The notes under the pieces are model-generated. The model searched no databases, was not told the DNA's origin, and was given only the letters and a program-made list of their open reading frames with translations. Both the position numbers and the translations under genes were made by a program. From a virus, in the IMG/VR virus record IMGVR_UViG_3300042914_003083, positions 1 through 24,695 of that record: a stretch of DNA of 24,695 nucleotides; one strand, written 5' to 3'. Shown here one piece after another: positions 6,983 to 21,668 of this stretch; the first letter of the stretch is position 1, and each line of letters starts with the position of its first letter.

Positions 6983-7103
6983 TTAAAGTGGCAAATCTAC
7001 ATTTTCAAAATTTGCAGAATCACCGATTTCCAATGCCGCTTGTCTGTTCATTTCATCTATTTGTTCTTGACGAGTAAGAGGTTTTGGAATTTCTATTGCA
7101 CAT
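6983..7103 (-). pseudogene. small frameshifted ORF or post-stop extension of the giant repeat protein
   Basis: Immediately after the TAA of the 2040-aa gene, the same frame continues open for 39 codons (CAIEIPKPLTRQEQ... ending FENVDLPL) to a double TAA at 6980-6985. An ATG at 7103-7101 overlaps the stop (TAATG) and has AGGA five bases upstream, an ideal start, but its frame ends after 16 codons. Dropping one A near 7096-7097 would join this ATG to the 39-codon frame. The simplest reading is a small gene, MC-IEIPKPLTRQEQIDEM and onward, broken by one extra base in the genome or assembly. Stop readthrough or a ribosomal slip are alternatives. Confidence 0.45.
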
Positions 7104-10100
7104 TATGTTCCTGATGCACCCGACGTTCCCGAAGTTCCCGATGAACCAGATGTTCCTGAAGTTCCTGTAACGGGTTCCGATTCTATTGTCTGAATTGAAT
7201 TCGCTAGTAAACCATAATCTCCAGCCTCAGGGTTTGTTCCGTAACCTTCAACTACCCCGCTATAAATAGTAGGCGTTACTGATAAATCATCAAATTCTTT
7301 AAAGTAGTTTACCCTTTCAGTTCGCCCATTAACTGGTTGTAGTCCTGATTCGATATTATTTCCAGTCTCACTATCATCATACAATGAATACATAATTCCA
7401 CGGAATTCTGGTCTGTAAACACCGACTGGTACAAATGAAACATTCACTTGAATATGTTTTGGTAATTGTAAAACCCCAGGATTACTTCTTTCTCTTGTAA
7501 CCGTTCCCGTTTCACTTGATAAATTCATATCTTCTGGCATTTTTGCAGTTTCCCATGTTGTTTGTTGATTATCAAACGTATATGAAAGTGAAGAAATATA
7601 ACCAGGCATCTTACGATATAAATGACCAATGTTTAGTCGTATCATCGGCCCTCTCATAAGACCACTCTTTAAATATTCAGGTGCAGTCCATGATGCAAGA
7701 TAGTTTAACTTCCTCCAAGAAGCTTTCATTTCATCCCTCGAACCGATATGAACTGTAAATCCAAACGAAATCTCTCGTTCATATCCTTGATATGTGTAAA
7801 GTGGGTCTGCACGTCCCATATACTTTACAGCGTTCCATGATGGATTATGGTTATCGGTTATGTTATCAAATGTTGCACGAAATACTATAACTTCAGCAGG
7901 GCAATTGCCATGACCACTCAATACAAGACTTGAAAAATAAAATTCAACCAAATCATCTTTTCCTGGAATACCATCCGTGTAACCTGATTTTTCATAGACA
8001 AGATTTGTGTTGATATTGAAATTCGCTCTCTTGTAATCAATAATATTTATCCTATCTCCTCTAAATTTTTGTTTTTCACCATTTATGGTTTTTTCGGAAG
8101 CAACCGCGTAATCTCTAAATACACTATCTCCAGAATTAAAAATTTCTTTTTTAGCAAATTTTTTGTATTCTATGGTGTTAATATATGGTTGATTTCTTTG
8201 AGCACCTGGCTCACCCTGTTCACCAAATCCATATCTGTCTGTTAGGTTACGAGTATCAAATCTAGCTTGATCTGGATCTGTAATAAATGAAACCGTAGAA
8301 TCATCGAGATTTATACCAGCACGAAAATCATTGAACAAACTACTACGTCTTCTGTCATTTCGTTTCAATTTATCGTAGTTTGAAACACGATACTTCTTGA
8401 TAGGGTTTGAATCATAATCTATAATTTGATCCGATGGTCCTTCTGATAATTCGATACCTTGGCGGAAGACACTGGTGTCTCTTTTTGATTCAAATCTATC
8501 TTGTTCTAAATCATATTTTGGATTAAATGGGTTTAGTTTTTTTATTATATTTTTTGTCTGTGATTGTATGTATATTTCGTCATTAAAATTTTGTGAAGAA
8601 TTTTCATCTTTAGGTCCATTCAAAATATAAGCGAGTGCTTTTATTATACCAAATGCAGTTCCACCATATTTACGTTGTTGGGATTTCAATTCATCAGCAT
8701 AAGTAGTTTCATTGATTGCACCGTAAAATGTATCTCGTTTTGCAGAATCTAAATATTGTGGTTGTGTTTGAGATAAAACATTCAATACTGATGCAGCTGT
8801 TATCGGACCGGAAAAAAATGATTTTTCTAACGTTGGTGATGTTGTATAGTTTGTTAAATATGGATGGCCAGCTCGACGTATAACTGTTCCACCGATTCCA
8901 AAATAAGATTGGGCACCACCAAATGTGCTGGATATTCTGGAAATAGAAGAAATCCCAGCTAATTCCTTAATTCTTTGAGTTGCCGATGTTCCTTGTCCCG
9001 GTTTCGTTGGTTTGAATGAGTTTGGTAAAAGTTCTTTCATCAGACCAATCAATCTATTGTAACCACCAGGGTCTCTATTTGCATCATTAGGAGTTCCTAA
9101 CTTTTCAAATGATTTATATTCAGGGTTTGATAACTGAAGATTTGTCTCTCTATTAAATGTTGACTTTTCATACTTGTTTAAAAAGTCAGAGTCAAATGGA
9201 AACAACCCATGTCTTGCTAAATGTACACCAGCTCTTGCCGTTGCAACATTTGCCAACATTGTTAATGGATTGTAAATCAAAGTCGATGATACTCCAAACA
9301 ATCCACTTGTTGGGGTTTTTGGGTCAACATCAACAGCGGGATTCATTGCCTGCAACCCAAGTTGTCTTATATTGAATAAACCACCCTTTATACTAGCAGT
9401 CCACTTTCCAAGACGAACTACATCCATTGCAATACGTTCTGCCTGAGTGACAATACCACCTCTAACTATACCATCGTCAAATGTCACACCAAATCCCCAA
9501 CGTTGATTTTCAACTTCACCAACTCGTTGAATACCACGAACAACGAATGGTTGATTGAAAACTGCAATTTCTTTGTTTACAGATTCATCTTGAAGTTTAT
9601 ATTTTGAGTATTGCTTATCTAACTCCGACGGAGACCGTCTTGTATTCGCCCATTTTGTTAGATAACCAAGACCATCGGTTGAATCCTTTGCCAATTTCTC
9701 ATACTTGCGGAAATATGTGCTTCCATACCCTTCACTCTTTACTTTCATCCATGGCACTTGATTTCCAAGTGTTGCAGTTCCTGTATTAGTCCCATCTGAC
9801 CAAAATATACCACCGAGAGTTTTCGGTGCATATTTTCCAACATCATCTGTTGTTCTTTGTCTTTTTACCTTTTCACGATTACCTTCAATCCCGAATCGTA
9901 TATCAGCAACATCATCCGGCGTAAGTCTTGGGTCTAATAATGGATAAAGTGATGAATTTGGATTGTTCATTTGAACCAAAAATCCAGAACGTTCCATTGG
10001 ATTAAAACCAAAAAACTTTGTATATGGAACTTTTTTGATTGATGATAGATTATCTGCGGTTGCAATTGAAAATCTAGACCATTCATCTGATAGTTTTGAT

Positions 10101-13100
10101 GAAGATACGTCATCAAACAATTTAGTGAATCCACTTATTGCATTTGGATTATTACCGGGAACTTTGAAGAAGTCCACTTCAGGTGCGTCTTGTTTAGAAC
10201 CATTCCAAGTGAATCTACTTGTTTCTTTTTTGTAGTATGATTCCAATGGTGCAATAAGAGTTTTGAATCCAAGTGCAGGTGTATTTTGAAGATAATCCAC
10301 ATTTGGAGCATCTTGACGTGTTCCCTTAAAAGAGAATCTCGATATATCAGGCTTGAATTCTGTTGAAAGTGATTCAACTAATTTCGTGAATCCCTTGTTT
10401 ACATCATTTTGGAAGTAATCAACAGTAGTTGCTTCCGATCTACTTCCTTTGAATGTAAATCTACTTATATCTTGTACATACTTTGTTTCAAGTGGTGCAA
10501 CTTTCAAATTGAATCCATCTGCCGATGTATTTGATAAGAAATCGACCGGAGTTGGGAGTGTTCCCTTGAATGTAAATTTTGAAACATCCTTTTTGAATTT
10601 ACTATCAAGTAAAGGTGTTTTGTTTATAAATCCGGTTTGATGTGTATCATCAAGGAAGTTTACTTCTTTTGGCAATGTACCTTTGAATGTATATTCGCTA
10701 CTTTCCTTCACATAATCCGTTTGTAACTTTTGTACAAACGAAGTGAATCCCTTTCCATTTGTATTTGGAAAGAAGTTTGTTGTTGGAGCATTCTTACTAT
10801 TACCGTCAAAATCGAATCTCGAAGAGTCTTTGACATAACGAGTGGCGAGTGCCTGTGGAAACTTCTCAAATCCCTTTGACGTATTATTCTTTGTTATATC
10901 AAAGAAATCAGTTTCAGGTGCAGATTGTCCACTTCCATCAAAATCAAATCTAGAAGAGTCCTTTATGTACTTGGTATCATAGATTTGGGCAAACTTCTGA
11001 AATCCTTTTGTTGTAAATTGACCATTTAGATCAAAGTAATTTACTTCTGGTGCATCACCACGGTTTCCGTCAAAATCAAATAATGAAGAGTCTTTGATAA
11101 ACTTCGAATCATATTTTTGAGCTAAACGATGAAATCCTGTTGTTTGATGTTGTTTGTTTAGGTCAAAGAAGTTTGTTTCAGGTGAATCAGTTCTTGTGCC
11201 TGACCAATCAAATTCAGAAGCATCTTGTATGTATTTTGAATCGTGCAATCCAGCAAATTTGTGAAATCCTGAAGTTGTTGTCTTTACCATCAAATCAAAG
11301 TAATTTACTTCTGGTGCATTCTGACGTATTCCATCCCAATCAAATCCAGATGAGTCTGGAATATATTTTGACTCGTATAACTGTGGGAATTTACTAAATC
11401 CAGCAGTTGTATTTTTTCCAGTTATATCAAAGTAATTCACTTCAGGTGAATCTTGACGTTTTCCATCCCAATCGAAATTAGAAGAATCAGCAATATACTT
11501 TGAATCGTATTGTTGCATGAATTTTGTAAATCCATGAGTTGTTGATTTATCGTTCAAATCAAAGTAGTTTACTTCAGGTGAATCACCGCGGTTTCCTTTC
11601 CATGAAAAGACTGATGAATCTGGAATATACTTTGAATCAAAAGTTGTTACAAACTTTGTAAAACCATCAGTAGTTGATTTTCCGTTCAAATCAAAATAAT
11701 TTACAACAGGAACTTCTTGTGAATTTCCTTTGAATGTAAATTGTGATGAATCTACTTTATAGTCAGATTGATATAATGTTGAGAAAGTTTTGAAGCCTTC
11801 CGATGTAAATTGTTTTGTTTCATCAAAGAAATTCGTTGATTCTATCTTGGAAAATCCGTAAATAGAAGATTCTGTTTCATACTTTGTTTCACCAATCTGA
11901 GAAAACTTTGTGAACCCTTTACCATTGATGTCTGTAATGAAATTGGTAGTTGGTGCAGAATCTCGTTTACCTGACCAACCAAATTCAGACTCACCTTTGT
12001 ATAGAGTCTGTCCTTTTTGTTGTTTTACAACAAATCCTTTTGCATTGGTATCTGGGAAGAAGTTTACTGATTGTGTACCTATAACAGAGAACTTTGATTT
12101 ATTCGGATTTTCATTTCTACCACTTGGATTTGTTTTTGTAACAACATCAAGATTGAGTTTACTGTTATCTTCGGTTTGTTGAGATTCGCCAGTATAACGG
12201 GCAACATCGACTTCTCTTGGTAATTCAAATCCTTCCAATTTTGAAATTGGTATAAAACGAAGTGGTAAGCCATCAAGATTCAAACGACTATTGTCTTCTG
12301 TTTGAATTGTTGTATTGTCAAACCTAAAAACCTTTGTCTTTGGGTCTGTTACAAATCCGTCTTGTTTTATATCTGTAATGATTGTTGGTGTCTCTTTCGC
12401 ACGTTCATATGTAAGAACATTGACATCAAGTACCGTTTTTGGGTCTGTGATATTGTTTATCGGAGAAATCAAATCCTTTGATATTTTTACCGATTGTTTT
12501 GTTCTATCAAATGTTTGTGGTTTAGCAACAATTTCAATATCTGGATTTACAACATTATCCACTTCATCATTTGGGTTTGGTTTTATCGTAGGACTTGTTT
12601 TTGTTCTATCAAATGTTTGAGGTGAAGGGATTATATCAACATTTGGATTTGTTATGTTGTTTGTTGCTTCATCTTTACCGACGGTAATTTTCGTAGGAGA
12701 TGTTGTATTATACGTCCCTTGTTCTTGTCCATTTACACGAACATTTGATTTCGTATTATATGTCCCTTGTTGCTGAATTGTAACCTTCACATCAGATATA
12801 TTATTGTTTGTTCCCTGTGGTTGCTTTATAGTCAATATATTTGACTTTGTAAGTTTGCTAGAGAACTCTGTTACATTCACCCCACCAAACTTTTCTGAAA
12901 TCATTTGGGTTGGAATAAATGTTCTTTCTTGTCCATCATACTGTTCGTTTATACGAGAGTATTTTGACACAGAATTTATAAGTAGATTCTGTTGTGCAAA
13001 CTTTCGTATGTCATCTAATTTTGTTGAATCTAATTTACTTTCTAATTGTTTTGTTTCCACCTTTTTTATAGTTGGTGAAAATTGAGATAACTTCGCCGTT

Positions 13101-13225
13101 ATAGGTTGAACGGTTGCGAAGTTCTTATTATTCGTTGCCTTTGATGCCTCTGGTGTATTTTTTGGTTCACGAGAAACTTCAGAACGAAATTTAGAAAGGT
13201 CTGATGATAAATCTACTAATGCCAT
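7103..13225 (-). CDS. giant tail/baseplate protein with ~16 tandem repeats
   Basis: A 2040-aa protein between tape measure and LysM/hub genes. Residues 1-385 are polar and partly repetitive (QGTYNT, QTFDRTK and QTEDNS each occur two or more times). Residues about 387-1055 hold about 16 tandem units of 37-44 residues with consensus NYFDLNG-TT-GF-KF, SKYI-DSS-F-F-G, APEV. Residues about 1100-1700 form a larger unrecognised region (GGIFWSDGTNTGTATLG, then several Gly/aromatic segments). Residues about 1740-1960 (YTYQGYEREISFGFTVHIGS, WRKLNYLAS, GPMIRLNIGHLY, ISSLSYTFDNQQTTWE) look like a baseplate or tube-initiator domain. The end is a GTSG-type low-complexity tail. A role in tube initiation or baseplate periphery is inferred from position. 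The start has GGGTAAC and an ATATTTAT motif 19 bases upstream. Confidence 0.8.
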   Translation of the reverse strand: MALVDLSSDLSKFRSEVSREPKNTPEASKATNNKNFATVQPITAKLSQFSPTIKKVETKQLESKLDSTKLDDIRKFAQQNLLINSVSKYSRINEQYDGQERTFIPTQMISEKFGGVNVTEFSSKLTKSNILTIKQPQGTNNNISDVKVTIQQQGTYNTKSNVRVNGQEQGTYNTTSPTKITVGKDEATNNITNPNVDIIPSPQTFDRTKTSPTIKPNPNDEVDNVVNPDIEIVAKPQTFDRTKQSVKISKDLISPINNITDPKTVLDVNVLTYERAKETPTIITDIKQDGFVTDPKTKVFRFDNTTIQTEDNSRLNLDGLPLRFIPISKLEGFELPREVDVARYTGESQQTEDNSKLNLDVVTKTNPSGRNENPNKSKFSVIGTQSVNFFPDTNAKGFVVKQQKGQTLYKGESEFGWSGKRDSAPTTNFITDINGKGFTKFSQIGETKYETESSIYGFSKIESTNFFDETKQFTSEGFKTFSTLYQSDYKVDSSQFTFKGNSQEVPVVNYFDLNGKSTTDGFTKFVTTFDSKYIPDSSVFSWKGNRGDSPEVNYFDLNDKSTTHGFTKFMQQYDSKYIADSSNFDWDGKRQDSPEVNYFDITGKNTTAGFSKFPQLYESKYIPDSSGFDWDGIRQNAPEVNYFDLMVKTTTSGFHKFAGLHDSKYIQDASEFDWSGTRTDSPETNFFDLNKQHQTTGFHRLAQKYDSKFIKDSSLFDFDGNRGDAPEVNYFDLNGQFTTKGFQKFAQIYDTKYIKDSSRFDFDGSGQSAPETDFFDITKNNTSKGFEKFPQALATRYVKDSSRFDFDGNSKNAPTTNFFPNTNGKGFTSFVQKLQTDYVKESSEYTFKGTLPKEVNFLDDTHQTGFINKTPLLDSKFKKDVSKFTFKGTLPTPVDFLSNTSADGFNLKVAPLETKYVQDISRFTFKGSRSEATTVDYFQNDVNKGFTKLVESLSTEFKPDISRFSFKGTRQDAPNVDYLQNTPALGFKTLIAPLESYYKKETSRFTWNGSKQDAPEVDFFKVPGNNPNAISGFTKLFDDVSSSKLSDEWSRFSIATADNLSSIKKVPYTKFFGFNPMERSGFLVQMNNPNSSLYPLLDPRLTPDDVADIRFGIEGNREKVKRQRTTDDVGKYAPKTLGGIFWSDGTNTGTATLGNQVPWMKVKSEGYGSTYFRKYEKLAKDSTDGLGYLTKWANTRRSPSELDKQYSKYKLQDESVNKEIAVFNQPFVVRGIQRVGEVENQRWGFGVTFDDGIVRGGIVTQAERIAMDVVRLGKWTASIKGGLFNIRQLGLQAMNPAVDVDPKTPTSGLFGVSSTLIYNPLTMLANVATARAGVHLARHGLFPFDSDFLNKYEKSTFNRETNLQLSNPEYKSFEKLGTPNDANRDPGGYNRLIGLMKELLPNSFKPTKPGQGTSATQRIKELAGISSISRISSTFGGAQSYFGIGGTVIRRAGHPYLTNYTTSPTLEKSFFSGPITAASVLNVLSQTQPQYLDSAKRDTFYGAINETTYADELKSQQRKYGGTAFGIIKALAYILNGPKDENSSQNFNDEIYIQSQTKNIIKKLNPFNPKYDLEQDRFESKRDTSVFRQGIELSEGPSDQIIDYDSNPIKKYRVSNYDKLKRNDRRRSSLFNDFRAGINLDDSTVSFITDPDQARFDTRNLTDRYGFGEQGEPGAQRNQPYINTIEYKKFAKKEIFNSGDSVFRDYAVASEKTINGEKQKFRGDRINIIDYKRANFNINTNLVYEKSGYTDGIPGKDDLVEFYFSSLVLSGHGNCPAEVIVFRATFDNITDNHNPSWNAVKYMGRADPLYTYQGYEREISFGFTVHIGSRDEMKASWRKLNYLASWTAPEYLKSGLMRGPMIRLNIGHLYRKMPGYISSLSYTFDNQQTTWETAKMPEDMNLSSETGTVTRERSNPGVLQLPKHIQVNVSFVPVGVYRPEFRGIMYSLYDDSETGNNIESGLQPVNGRTERVNYFKEFDDLSVTPTIYSGVVEGYGTNPEAGDYGLLANSIQTIESEPVTGTSGTSGSSGTSGTSGASGT
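10060..12067 (-). repeat. tandem ~42-residue protein repeats in the giant tail protein
   Basis: About 16 successive units were aligned by eye. The best conserved (units 4-10) are 44 residues long, a 132-base period, with invariant-type positions: paired aromatics at the start, GF in the middle, SKY or similar, DSS-F, then an aromatic-Gly. Units at both ends are shorter and more diverged (37-41 residues), while the central ones are close relatives, a pattern expected from internal duplication. Confidence 0.85.
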
Positions 13226-17312: not shown

Positions 17313-17342
17313 GGGTTTACATACCTATAAATATGTAAACCC
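17313..17342 (-). terminator. perfect 10-bp hairpin after the 81-aa gene
   Basis: GGGTTTACAT at 17313-17322 pairs perfectly with ATGTAAACCC at 17333-17342 around a 10-base loop. On the minus strand it is followed by TACTTTTTTATGG, a typical intrinsic terminator tail, six bases past the stop of the 81-aa gene. The promoter-like motif lies in its loop and arm. Confidence 0.7.
17327..17334 (-). promoter_or_regulatory. candidate promoter motif ATATTTAT before the 78-aa gene
   Basis: Exact 8-mer on the coding strand, 35 bases before the start at 17291, nested in the hairpin 17313-17342. A transcript starting a few bases downstream would lack the hairpin's 5' arm. Confidence 0.5.
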
Positions 17343-18476: not shown

Positions 18477-18484
18477 ATAAATAT
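18477..18484 (-). promoter_or_regulatory. candidate promoter motif ATATTTAT before the gp26-like gene
   Basis: Exact 8-mer on the coding strand, 41 bases before the ATG at 18435, between the homing endonuclease stop and the gp26-like start. Confidence 0.45.
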
Positions 18485-18487
18485 GTG

Positions 18488-19324
18488 TTAGAGTAGATTT
18501 TCTATCAGAGTTTCAAGAACATAAACTGGATTTTCATTTATATCTGATTCCCAAAACCGGAGGAGGGTGTATCCGTTTGAATAGGCAATTGCAGTTTTCT
18601 TTTTATCATTTACCACGTTCTTGGTTTGTTCCTTCATGACAGGGGTTTCGTGTTTGGTTCCAGGTCTGCAGTGCCAGAAGTCTCCGTCTACTTCGATGAG
18701 GATGTTCTTACTCGGAATGTAAAAGTCATAGAAGAATCCCGATAACTCGTATTGATAGATACATTCTATACCATGAGATTCTAGCATATCCTGCATTAGA
18801 CGTTCTGGTTTAGACATTTTACCTGATGTTAGTCTTTCTCTTCGGTTGATGGCAAGTTGTTTTTTCATCTGTTCACGGTGTTCAGGAGATTTTGGTTTAC
18901 CCTTATGAAACTCCGATATTTTTTTTGATCTTTCTTCATTTTCACTTATTGATCGTTTCAGTAAGTTTGCACGTTCCTCTCCGTATGCAGCGTCATACGA
19001 GAGTCCTTTGTTCCATTGTTGAATTTCTCCAGATTGAAATCTTTGTTTTCTAGTTTTAGCCGATTTCTTCGCACCTTCTTGTGAATAAAATCCACCAGTC
19101 GTTCGAACATAATGTCCGTGTTTGAAATCATTGAATTTTTGTTCACGATAATCCCACTTTACAATTTCTCCACATCCACATTTACATAATGGGTCTTCAC
19201 CATTATTGTATATCAGCTTTCTAACAACCTCAGATGAAACTTCGTGTGACTTGCGATAATGGAGAGAAATACTGGTGTAGTTATCGTATTCCTTCTCACA
19301 TAAATGACATTTGAATGTTTGCAT
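18488..19324 (-). CDS. free-standing homing endonuclease, C2H2 finger plus Vsr-like nuclease
   Basis: The 278-aa protein opens with a C2H2 zinc finger (C6, C9, H22, H27), followed by CKCGCGE and FKHGH, a second zinc-type patch common in phage homing enzymes. A NUMOD3-like DNA-binding motif (HKGKPKSPEHREQMKK, about 140-155) comes next. The C-terminal 110 residues form a Vsr/EDxHD-type PD-(D/E)XK domain: SKPERLMQDML, YDFYIPSKNILIEVDGDFWH, NDKKKTAIAYSNGYTLLRFW. It would cut a phage genome lacking it and spread by repair; it has no tail role. It sits between the tube and gp26-like genes. AGGGA lies nine bases before the ATG, but inside the 3' arm of a 15-bp hairpin, so translation from read-through mRNA should be blocked. 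Confidence 0.85.
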   Translation of the reverse strand: MQTFKCHLCEKEYDNYTSISLHYRKSHEVSSEVVRKLIYNNGEDPLCKCGCGEIVKWDYREQKFNDFKHGHYVRTTGGFYSQEGAKKSAKTRKQRFQSGEIQQWNKGLSYDAAYGEERANLLKRSISENEERSKKISEFHKGKPKSPEHREQMKKQLAINRRERLTSGKMSKPERLMQDMLESHGIECIYQYELSGFFYDFYIPSKNILIEVDGDFWHCRPGTKHETPVMKEQTKNVVNDKKKTAIAYSNGYTLLRFWESDINENPVYVLETLIENLL

Positions 19325-19328
19325 AATG

Positions 19329-19378
19329 AAAAATCCCTATATTGTTTAGTATCTCTACTAATAAATATAGGGATTTTT
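19329..19378. terminator. 15-bp hairpin with T tracts on both strands; hides a ribosome binding site
   Basis: Bases 19329-19343 pair without mismatch with 19364-19378 (core ATCCCTATAT / ATATAGGGAT), with a 20-base loop. Runs of T flank it on both strands, so it can end transcription in either direction, including that of the tube gene. On the minus strand its 3' arm contains the AGGGA of the homing endonuclease gene. Confidence 0.7.
19361..19368 (-). promoter_or_regulatory. candidate promoter motif ATATTTAT before the minus-strand homing endonuclease
   Basis: Exact 8-mer on the coding strand, 36 bases before the ATG at 19324, in the 5' arm of the hairpin. A transcript begun near 19354 would leave out that arm and free the ribosome binding site. 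Confidence 0.5.
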
Positions 19379-19392
19379 TCTCAAACTTACAA

Positions 19393-19433
19393 ACGATTAC
19401 GTTATTTTGTTCTAAATAATACCACGTAATCGT
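19393..19433. other. 10-bp inverted repeat just after the tail tube gene
   Basis: ACGATTACGT at 19393-19402 pairs with ACGTAATCGT at 19424-19433, leaving a 21-base loop. It starts about six bases past the tube stop and has no T tract, so it may protect the 3' end of the tube mRNA from decay rather than end transcription. Confidence 0.55.
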
Positions 19434-19439
19434 ATTCAA

Positions 19440-19928
19440 TTAGAACTGAAGGATGGCATAGTCGTAACTTAACGTAAGTGAAATTTCAACGAAGTTATCC
19501 GTTGACCAATCCATATCACCAAATGTTGTTGCTGTGATAAACGCACCCTTCAGAGTCCACTCTTCAACCTTGTCACCAACTGGGCCAAGAACGTTGAATG
19601 TAATGTCCTTCTTATAGAAGTCAGAATAACCATCACGACCTGTTACAGATTCGTGTGACAAACGTACCCACTCCATAACTGCCTGTGCAGCTGATGGTAC
19701 GATTGGGTCATATAGCTTGATAGTGACATCCTGCCATTCACCTTTACCCTTAACCTTACGTTTCACATTGATGTGGTCAAGTGTGATAGGGTTGAAGTTG
19801 ATGTTTGGTCTACTTGCGCCTTTGATAAGGTAAGCAGGAACACCTTCGATATACATAATAAACCGATTAGCAAGTTTCGGTTCATACGGGGTAAAGAAAA
19901 TTTCGGTAGGGTCGAGTAGTTCAGCCAT
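19440..19928 (-). CDS. tail tube protein (gp19-like)
   Basis: At 162 aa it has the length of T4 gp19 (163 aa). It starts MAELLDPTEIFFTPYEPKLA and has the tube-fold order: ANRFIMYIEGVPAYLIKGAS, then ITLDHINVKRKVKGKGEWQD, VTIKLYDPIVPSAAQAVMEW, DITFNVLGPVGDKVEEWTL and FVEISLTLSYDYAILQF. Hexamers of this protein stack to form the inner tube enclosed by the sheath. TTGGAGAAATAA provides a ribosome binding site. Compared with the neighbouring endonuclease genes it uses more C-ending codons, as expected for an abundant protein. A homing endonuclease gene lies on either side. It is expected to be highly and late expressed; a near-copy of the promoter motif (CTATTTAT) lies 43 bases upstream. Confidence 0.92.
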   Translation of the reverse strand: MAELLDPTEIFFTPYEPKLANRFIMYIEGVPAYLIKGASRPNINFNPITLDHINVKRKVKGKGEWQDVTIKLYDPIVPSAAQAVMEWVRLSHESVTGRDGYSDFYKKDITFNVLGPVGDKVEEWTLKGAFITATTFGDMDWSTDNFVEISLTLSYDYAILQF

Positions 19929-20024: not shown

Positions 20025-20032
20025 ATATTTAT
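20025..20032 (+). promoter_or_regulatory. candidate promoter motif ATATTTAT before the plus-strand homing endonuclease
   Basis: Exact 8-mer, here on the plus strand, 28 bases before the ATG at 20061. It is the only rightward gene, and the motif is turned round with it. Confidence 0.5.
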
Positions 20033-20060: not shown

Positions 20061-21668
20061 ATGAATTGCATACAATGTAATACACCGTTTACAAAATCAT
20101 CATACAGTTCAAAACAACTCTGTTCCAGAAAATGTAACAACGCATACACGAAGAAAATAAACACAATTGAAAAGTTGTGTCCAATGTGTAATAAATACTT
20201 CACATCTGACAAAAGGAAAAATAGGATTGTATGTAGTGTTCCATGTGCAAATAAATATCAAAAAACAGAACAGGTTTTGCAAAAGAAACGAGAGTTGACC
20301 AAATCTAGTTTGATGGAAAAATATGGCGTTGAACATAATTCACAGATAGAAGGATTCACCAAAAATCGTCAGCAAACGATGATCTCGAAGTATGGTGTGC
20401 CACATTTTACAAATAAAGAAAAGGCACAAAAAACACTTATCGAACGATACGGCGATTCCAAGTACAACAACAAAGAAAAGACGAAACAGACGATGAAAGA
20501 CAAGTATGGTGTAGAATCGTTTTCACAATCACCCCTGTTCAAGAAAAAACTGAAAGAAAAGTATGGTGTTGAACATCCGATGATGATTTTGAAAAATAGG
20601 AAATCTGCGTTTTCAAAAGTTATCTCTAAGATAACCACAGTCACGCCATTGTTTGATTTTGATACATATAACGGAGTAAACGGTTCATCCGGTTATCCAT
20701 TTAGATGTAATACATGTAATAATGAATTTAACGCTAGATTAGACGATGGAAATATTCCAATATGCAGGGTGTGTAATCCAATAATTCATACAAAGTCTAA
20801 ATGTGAATATGAGATAATAGAGTGGTTAAAAACAGTATACACGGGTGAGATTATACATGGAGACAAATCCGTATTAAATGGTAAAGAAATAGATGTTTAT
20901 TTACCGACGGAAAATCTTGGCATAGAGTTAAATGGTCTCTATTATCATGGGGAAATTTGTGGTGGAAAAAAGAGAAATTATCACCTCAATAAAACGCAAC
21001 GTTGTGCCACGCATGGTATAACATTATTACACGTTTTGGACATCGAGTGGATAAATAAAAGAGATATAGTAAAATCTATACTTTTGAATAAGTTGAAGAC
21101 ATTAAAGTTCAAACCACTTAACGGTAGGAACTGTATTATTAAAGAGATTTCTGCTCGTGAATCTAATGAATTTCTGAATAAAAATCATATACAGGGAGAA
21201 GATAAGTCATCTGTTAGAATTGGACTATACCACAAAGATACGCTGGTATCTGTATTGACATTCGGAAAAAACAGATTCAGTAAAGAAACTGAATGGGAGA
21301 TGTATAGATTTTGTAGTGAGACTTATACTCACGTTAGAGGCGGTCTTGATAAAATGTTTTCATACTTTATATCCGCGTACAAACCATCAAGCATACTTAC
21401 ATTCTCAGATAGGAGATATTTTGATGGTAGTGTGTATGGTAGAATCGGGTTTAAATTTGTAGGAGTTACGCCACCGAATTATCACTACTTCAAGATTAAT
21501 GACCACAAAACCGTATTCGGTTCCAGAAACAAATTTCAAAAACATAAGTTGCCATTTCTACTCGAAACATTTGATTCATCTCTCACCGAATGGGAGAATA
21601 TGCAACTCAATGGATATGACCGTATATGGGATTGCGGTAGTTCTAAGTGGATATGGTCAATTGGGTGA
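20061..21668 (+). CDS. large free-standing PD-(D/E)XK homing endonuclease with GNAT/Mom-like C-terminus
   Basis: The start chosen is the ATG at 20061 (AGGA six bases upstream), giving 535 aa and beginning at MNCIQC; an in-frame TTG at 20019 lacks support. Domains in order: two zinc ribbons (C3, C6, C21, C25; C40, C43, C58, C62); five repeats around KYGV (about 85-175), a DNA-binding array seen in phage endonucleases; a third CxxC...CxxC ribbon (about 215-245); a PD-(D/E)XK core with CEYEIIEWL, GKEIDVYLPTENLGIELNG and LLHVLDIEW (about 250-335); and a C-terminal part (about 365-535) with LVSVLTFGK, WEMYRFCS, ILTFSDRRYFDG and GFKFVGVTPPNYHYF that resembles GNAT/Mom-like folds. It is read against all neighbours, lies between the 162-aa gene and the tube gene, and is a likely selfish insertion. 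Confidence 0.85.
   Translation: MNCIQCNTPFTKSSYSSKQLCSRKCNNAYTKKINTIEKLCPMCNKYFTSDKRKNRIVCSVPCANKYQKTEQVLQKKRELTKSSLMEKYGVEHNSQIEGFTKNRQQTMISKYGVPHFTNKEKAQKTLIERYGDSKYNNKEKTKQTMKDKYGVESFSQSPLFKKKLKEKYGVEHPMMILKNRKSAFSKVISKITTVTPLFDFDTYNGVNGSSGYPFRCNTCNNEFNARLDDGNIPICRVCNPIIHTKSKCEYEIIEWLKTVYTGEIIHGDKSVLNGKEIDVYLPTENLGIELNGLYYHGEICGGKKRNYHLNKTQRCATHGITLLHVLDIEWINKRDIVKSILLNKLKTLKFKPLNGRNCIIKEISARESNEFLNKNHIQGEDKSSVRIGLYHKDTLVSVLTFGKNRFSKETEWEMYRFCSETYTHVRGGLDKMFSYFISAYKPSSILTFSDRRYFDGSVYGRIGFKFVGVTPPNYHYFKINDHKTVFGSRNKFQKHKLPFLLETFDSSLTEWENMQLNGYDRIWDCGSSKWIWSIG

Follow-up and report, generated by a model that had tools for sequence, protein, structure and literature searches.

Does the synthesis of a homing endonuclease encoded directly behind a phage tail tube gene follow the expression of that gene, or does it follow a promoter of its own? 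The question is raised by a hairpin that lies immediately before the homing endonuclease gene (HEG) in a 24.7-kb virus record. The whole stretch of DNA that was analysed, 24,695 nucleotides long, is called the window here. The hairpin is very probably a cis-acting lock, which would make endonuclease synthesis depend on the gene's own promoter and not on tube expression. The support for this lock is computational and comes from geometry, covariation, the polarity of a promoter-like box, and differences from other genes and from HEG-free relatives. On its minus strand the window encodes a tail module of the T4 type; the genes and one junction element are listed below.

24630-22300, minus strand: tail sheath gene
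20061-21668, plus strand: antisense endonuclease-like gene (DUF7487, phrog_3339), between the tube gene and the gene at 22241-21753
19440..19928, minus strand: tail tube gene (T4 gp19-like), immediately upstream of the endonuclease gene
18488..19324, minus strand: HEG, 278 aa, between tube and hub
18477..18484, minus strand: ATATTTAT box of the hub gene, at the right-hand junction relative to HEG-free relatives
18435-17566, minus strand: baseplate hub gene

The DUF7487 gene at 20061-21668 (plus strand) is preceded by a ATATTTAT copy at 20025 and, just before it, by a stem with a T-run, and it has no lock. At 7103-13225 the minus strand encodes a 2040-aa protein with many NYFDLNGKSTTDGF-type repeats and a Gly-Thr-Ser repeat tail.

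By its predicted fold, the 278-aa protein is a Vsr-like (EDxHD-type) homing endonuclease. It combines N-terminal zinc-finger-like motifs with a C-terminal Vsr-like nuclease (DUF559/MTES_1575 match). The best PDB match by sequence profile was I-Bth0305I (E 0.0029). An AlphaFold2 model with a mean pLDDT of 84.9 had I-Bth0305I and Vsr as its top structural matches in Foldseek, the best being 3r3p, the catalytic domain of I-Bth0305I (E 3.7e-5, TM 0.78 by target). Predicted structure and profile match both give the catalytic domain a Vsr-like fold. Residues E174, D200, E211, D213, H218 and several more do not vary among 37 sequences, an observation that involves no superposition on the I-Bth0305I active site. 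Full-length relatives of the endonuclease were not found among named phages, and the junction used as a nucleotide query against named phages gave no match.

The hairpin is formed by a perfect 15-bp stem on the minus strand, in which 19378-19364 pair with 19343-19329, and it is prolonged inward by an inner stem. After the 3' arm come the bases CATT and then the endonuclease ATG (19324-19322, minus strand). The elements of this leader are listed below, together with their basis where it can be given.

19393..19433, minus strand: second, smaller stem-loop (ACGATTACGT/ACGTAATCGT) just past the tube stop codon
19364..19378, minus strand: 5' arm (AAAAATCCCTATATT); sequence, fold and arm-swap test
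19361..19368, minus strand: ATATTTAT promoter-like box, at the top of the 5' arm and in the loop; strand-polar leader motif of the virus group
19344..19363, minus strand: 20-nt loop with the inner stem TTAGTA/TACTAA; fold
19329..19343, minus strand: 3' arm (AATATAGGGATTTTT), which holds the Shine-Dalgarno (SD) sequence and the T-run; sequence, fold and relatives
19334..19338, minus strand: SD-like AGGGA; nine bases between AGGGA and ATG

The AGGGA is a moderate SD. On re-reading of the sequence, the coordinates of the initial annotation for the stem, the AGGGA and the spacing to the ATG were all correct. Its placing of the box in the 5' arm was slightly generous, as five of the eight bases lie in the arm and three in the loop. 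Folded as a plus-strand copy, the hairpin reaches -28 kcal/mol (z = -7.15), and none of 200 dinucleotide shuffles did as well. In the window it lies about 60 nt 3' of the tube stop codon. Stems resembling the smaller stem-loop at 19393..19433, with different sequences, were seen by eye in relatives.

The box inside the hairpin has the distribution of a promoter element. In the window, ATATTTAT occurs in seven minus-strand copies, six of which lie 27-49 nt before a gene start. Among 239 related loci, in which intergenic DNA is 0.14 of 1.96 Mb, 743 intergenic copies are sense and 25 antisense. The T4 box TATAAATA, with 26 intergenic sense copies in the same loci, was rejected as the promoter box because it showed no enrichment in sense leaders. 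All five ATATTTAT copies in the stretch read of Flavobacterium phage immuto are sense, as are five of the seven in Microcystis phage Mel-JY01; no paper was found on the promoters of immuto phages or on Mel-JY01. This sequence pattern is most simply read, by a wide margin, as that of a promoter, and ATATTTAT is a strong candidate promoter motif for this virus group. A box of this kind also lies upstream of the tube gene in relatives. In the deep-branching loci L097, L107, L112 and L126, a TTG-N20-TAnnTTTG pattern, which we take to resemble the promoter of Bacteroidota, lies across the hairpin and either replaces the usual box or stands beside it.

A box within a stem is also seen before other genes. 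The ATATTTAT boxes at 17334 and 1709 (minus strand) lie inside terminator-like stems with a free SD, the stem at 17334 consisting of GGGTTTACATATTTATAGGTATGTAAACCC and then TACTTTTTT. The g13269 leaders of relatives likewise have a hairpin that encloses ATATTTAT and leaves the SD free. Since such hairpins stand before ordinary genes, part of the design is general in the group, and these viruses may commonly place a promoter within a stem.

Folding of the mRNA (minus) strand with 40 nt of coding sequence included predicts a sharp change in SD exposure at the box. The window SD has an unpaired probability of 0.0005 in read-through RNA, which includes the 5' arm, and of 0.71-0.90 in RNA that begins with the first base of ATATTTAT or anywhere further downstream. 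The earlier claim that RNA lacking the 5' arm exposes the SD is thus borne out in predicted folds. Because the SD opens for all of these 5' ends, the conclusion is independent of the exact start site.

These features would work together as follows. A polymerase reading through from the strongly transcribed tube gene would produce RNA with the SD paired in the 3' arm, and this RNA would be silent for the endonuclease; a fraction of it may stop at the T-run of the hairpin. With ATATTTAT as promoter, RNA would start about 6-8 nt behind the box, at approximately 19353-19356, and without the 5' arm its SD and start codon would be open. The benefit may consist in capping the endonuclease dose under heavy late tail transcription. 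By analogy with T4, the tube gene is presumably a late structural gene, so that the lock would probably limit read-through and not timing.

The endonuclease search gave 80 loci, nearly all of them 60-140 nt behind a tube gene, and the identity of these tubes to the window tube falls to about 40%. Clustering of the HEG loci at 90% identity yielded 55 clusters. The stem, which the initial annotation expected in relatives that keep the gene, is present in every one of the 55 as a hairpin that ends no more than 16 nt from the start codon. The box or a close variant lies inside the hairpin in 53 clusters (exact in 44). In 41 of the 55 the SD lies in the 3' arm, always 6-9 nt before the ATG, and is paired by predicted folding in a stable hairpin of the read-through RNA. 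Hairpin, box and SD all occurred together in 1 of 550 shuffled leaders. In the other 14 of the 55 clusters no SD can be recognised in the arm, and SD burial is therefore less conserved than the position of the box inside the hairpin. Loci L099, L104, L110, L111, L145 and L133 have a CGATATTTATTATCG hairpin directly before the endonuclease, with no visible SD in the arm.

Comparison of relatives for compensatory stem changes, which had been proposed as a check, did reveal such changes, both in an arm-swap test and in a pair table registered on the ATG. The median stem pairing was 12 bp for native arms versus 7 bp for arms swapped between loci, and for 20 of 45 loci no swap equalled the native score. 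The arm sequences vary between subfamilies with their complementarity kept. The pairs at -13 to -10 before the ATG are nearly all of the pyrimidine-purine type, as required by the SD in the 3' arm, and several pair types are found elsewhere in the stem. A MAFFT column alignment was dropped for pair counting, as it put the subfamilies out of register by one base. Among the closest relatives the 55-nt hairpin is 89-98% identical; in more diverged pairs, fourfold-degenerate sites of the HEG are 31-48% identical and the spacer 48%. These sequence comparisons suggest that selection acts on the hairpin itself.

DNA that is far more conserved than the gene behind it might also be an operator. The endonuclease would then repress itself as I-TevI does, through an operator overlapping its late promoter (PMC2988022), and the dyad would result from protein binding and not from RNA folding. 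The arms change completely across subfamilies while their complementarity stays, however, and a sequence-specific DNA site would not need pairing, which makes this explanation very unlikely as a substitute for the lock. Lock and operator could also coexist.

The difference between the two kinds of RNA is peculiar to the HEG leaders when these are set against other genes with the same box. In 40 HEG leaders, a set limited to the clusters having both the SD in the arm and the box, the SD is unpaired at 0.001 in read-through RNA versus 0.58 in promoter-started RNA. For the tube, hub, sheath and other genes with the same box, the values are 0.36-0.44 versus 0.43-0.51. The contrast between read-through and promoter-started RNA differs between HEG leaders and other genes with p<1e-16. 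A loose 8-bp criterion for the lock gave many weak AU-rich matches at ordinary genes, and accessibility and scored stems were used in its place.

Transcription termination at the hairpin is plausible. A T-run is present and the 15-bp stem has only three G-C pairs; a consensus terminator scan did not call the hairpin, the loop limit of the scan being 8 nt versus the 20 nt found here. It may be asked whether the hairpin mainly terminates the tube operon and houses the next promoter for compactness, the SD being buried as a by-product of the close start codon. The hairpins with a free SD in the 17334, 1709 and g13269 leaders would fit such a terminator, and so would the HEG hairpins that have no SD in the arm (14 of 55) and the T-rich stretch that follows most HEG hairpins. 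A by-product, however, would not explain why, in 41 of 55 clusters, the 3' arm invariably carries the purine-rich SD side at a spacing of 6-9 nt to the ATG while the arms themselves change. The few G-C pairs and the failure of the scan to call the hairpin also speak against a terminator, as does the corresponding stem at the HEG-free junction, which has the opposite polarity and leaves the SD free. A role mainly in termination is accordingly improbable.

The HEG-free relatives show what the junction looks like without the insert. In these relatives a GGGTATAC-type stem stands before the box, not around it, and the hub SD is free. Microcystis phage Mel-JY01, which has the nearest tube gene among named phages (86%), has no insert. 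The tube of L002 is 99% identical to the window tube, and when L002 and the window are compared by eye, the insert seems to have taken the place of the DNA between the tube stop codon and the hub promoter box. The tube-hub slot contains the HEG, rmlB or nothing, and presence and absence at this one site are polymorphic among close relatives. On the tube-gene tree the content of the slot changes at least 12 times (the least possible number being 2), as expected of a mobile insert. In L030 the hairpin persists after the tube gene and only a few codons of the endonuclease remain (ATGACAAAATTTAATGGAAATTTGTAA), which marks a decayed copy.

The position of the hairpin, about 60 nt past the tube stop codon in a HEG family found nearly always behind the tube gene, would also suit an RNA processing site or a stabiliser of the tube-mRNA 3' end, unrelated to endonuclease translation. 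The HEG-free relatives do not have this hairpin, however, and the same kind of hairpin precedes a GIY-YIG nuclease that follows the sheath gene. Such a function is extremely unlikely to account for the hairpin.

The lock is also found on other cargo. The DNA pattern CCCTATATTTATN{6,34}ATATAGGG alone, searched in 2.9 million viral contigs, gave 35 loci, which include near-copies of one virus from different samples; all 35 lie directly after a tail tube gene. The hairpin is followed by the HEG in 13, by an rmlB-like gene in 21 and by the contig end in 1. A second hairpin pattern gave 18 loci, 17 of them behind a tube gene. The rmlB-like gene, a sugar-nucleotide dehydratase (Pfam GDP_Man_Dehyd/Epimerase), occupies the same tube-hub slot as the HEG (L015, L176, L207, L210, L230, L237 and others). 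Judged by sequence, the rmlB and HEG leaders look homologous, including the inner stem, which is outside the search pattern. The rmlB leaders have AGGG 10-14 nt from the ATG, and their SD remains rather inaccessible in the short RNA as well (median 0.12).

The same lock precedes the GIY-YIG nuclease gene located between sheath and tube; it is seen in each of the five close relatives with leader sequence, and its arms have changed and are still complementary. Examples behind the sheath gene are L129:2084-2791 and L292-L296, and L129 has two unrelated nucleases in one genome, each with its own lock. Among the large DUF7487 endonucleases the lock was found in 1 of 21 sense genes and in none of the 14 antisense genes, numbers that do not bear out the hypothesis of a lock required by sense-oriented inserts only. 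It may tentatively be proposed that the portable lock belongs to the cargo slot, that rmlB and the HEG are exchanged behind a homologous lock, and that homing-type exchange moves regulated, non-selfish cargo; this remains somewhat doubtful.

The mechanism itself is already known from I-TevI, segB and mobE. In the T4 leaders of I-TevI, I-TevII and I-TevIII, a stable hairpin in read-through RNA sequesters the SD, which stands about 8 nt from the AUG. RNA from a late promoter at a suitable position starts without the 5' arm, and early and middle read-through RNA stays silent (PMC2988022, PMC3014915). The initial annotation saw the logic of I-TevI copied here. That likeness stands for SD burial and box placement (41 and 53 of the 55 clusters), but it does not carry over directly to the timing argument, the upstream gene being presumably late, and it does not extend to the T4 box. 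The three T4 endonucleases lie in group I introns within early or middle genes, have the box TATAAATA and are of the GIY-YIG or HNH type, whereas the window gene is free-standing behind a presumably late tail gene, has the box ATATTTAT and encodes a Vsr-like nuclease. I-Bth0305I shares the predicted catalytic fold, but it is annotated as a mobile intron protein, unlike the free-standing window gene with its zinc-finger-like motifs. The free-standing HEGs segB (T4) and mobE (phage Aeh1) have an SD-burying hairpin and a similar layout of promoter and structure (PMC2988022). They are single cases in T-even relatives, of the GIY-YIG and HNH types, and the review that treats them describes no common lock on unrelated cargo and no deep covariation set (PMC2988022). 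Read-through-silent and late-promoter-active leaders are also known from genes other than HEGs, namely T4 gene e (lysozyme) and soc (PMC3014915, PMC2988022); these are resident phage genes, whereas the locked genes described here are cargo in a variable slot.

In its sequence features the window gene belongs to the kind represented by I-TevI, segB and mobE. What appears to be new is the Vsr-like nuclease, the different promoter box, the presumably late gene upstream, the depth of the covariation, and the sharing of the lock by unrelated cargo. The cargo behind sheath or tube that shares this kind of lock comprises a Vsr-like nuclease, a GIY-YIG nuclease and a sugar-nucleotide dehydratase. A control known from a handful of T-even genes is thus seen throughout a deep group of contractile-tailed viruses, most of them uncultured, whose variation suffices to show base-pair covariation, and on two unrelated nucleases and a metabolic gene. 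The old idea that selfish genes have to be insulated from host transcription becomes testable by comparison. Because the gene upstream is itself a late structural gene by analogy with T4, the lock looks like protection against a read-through dose and not like a timer, and in this respect it would depart from the textbook reading of the T4 systems.
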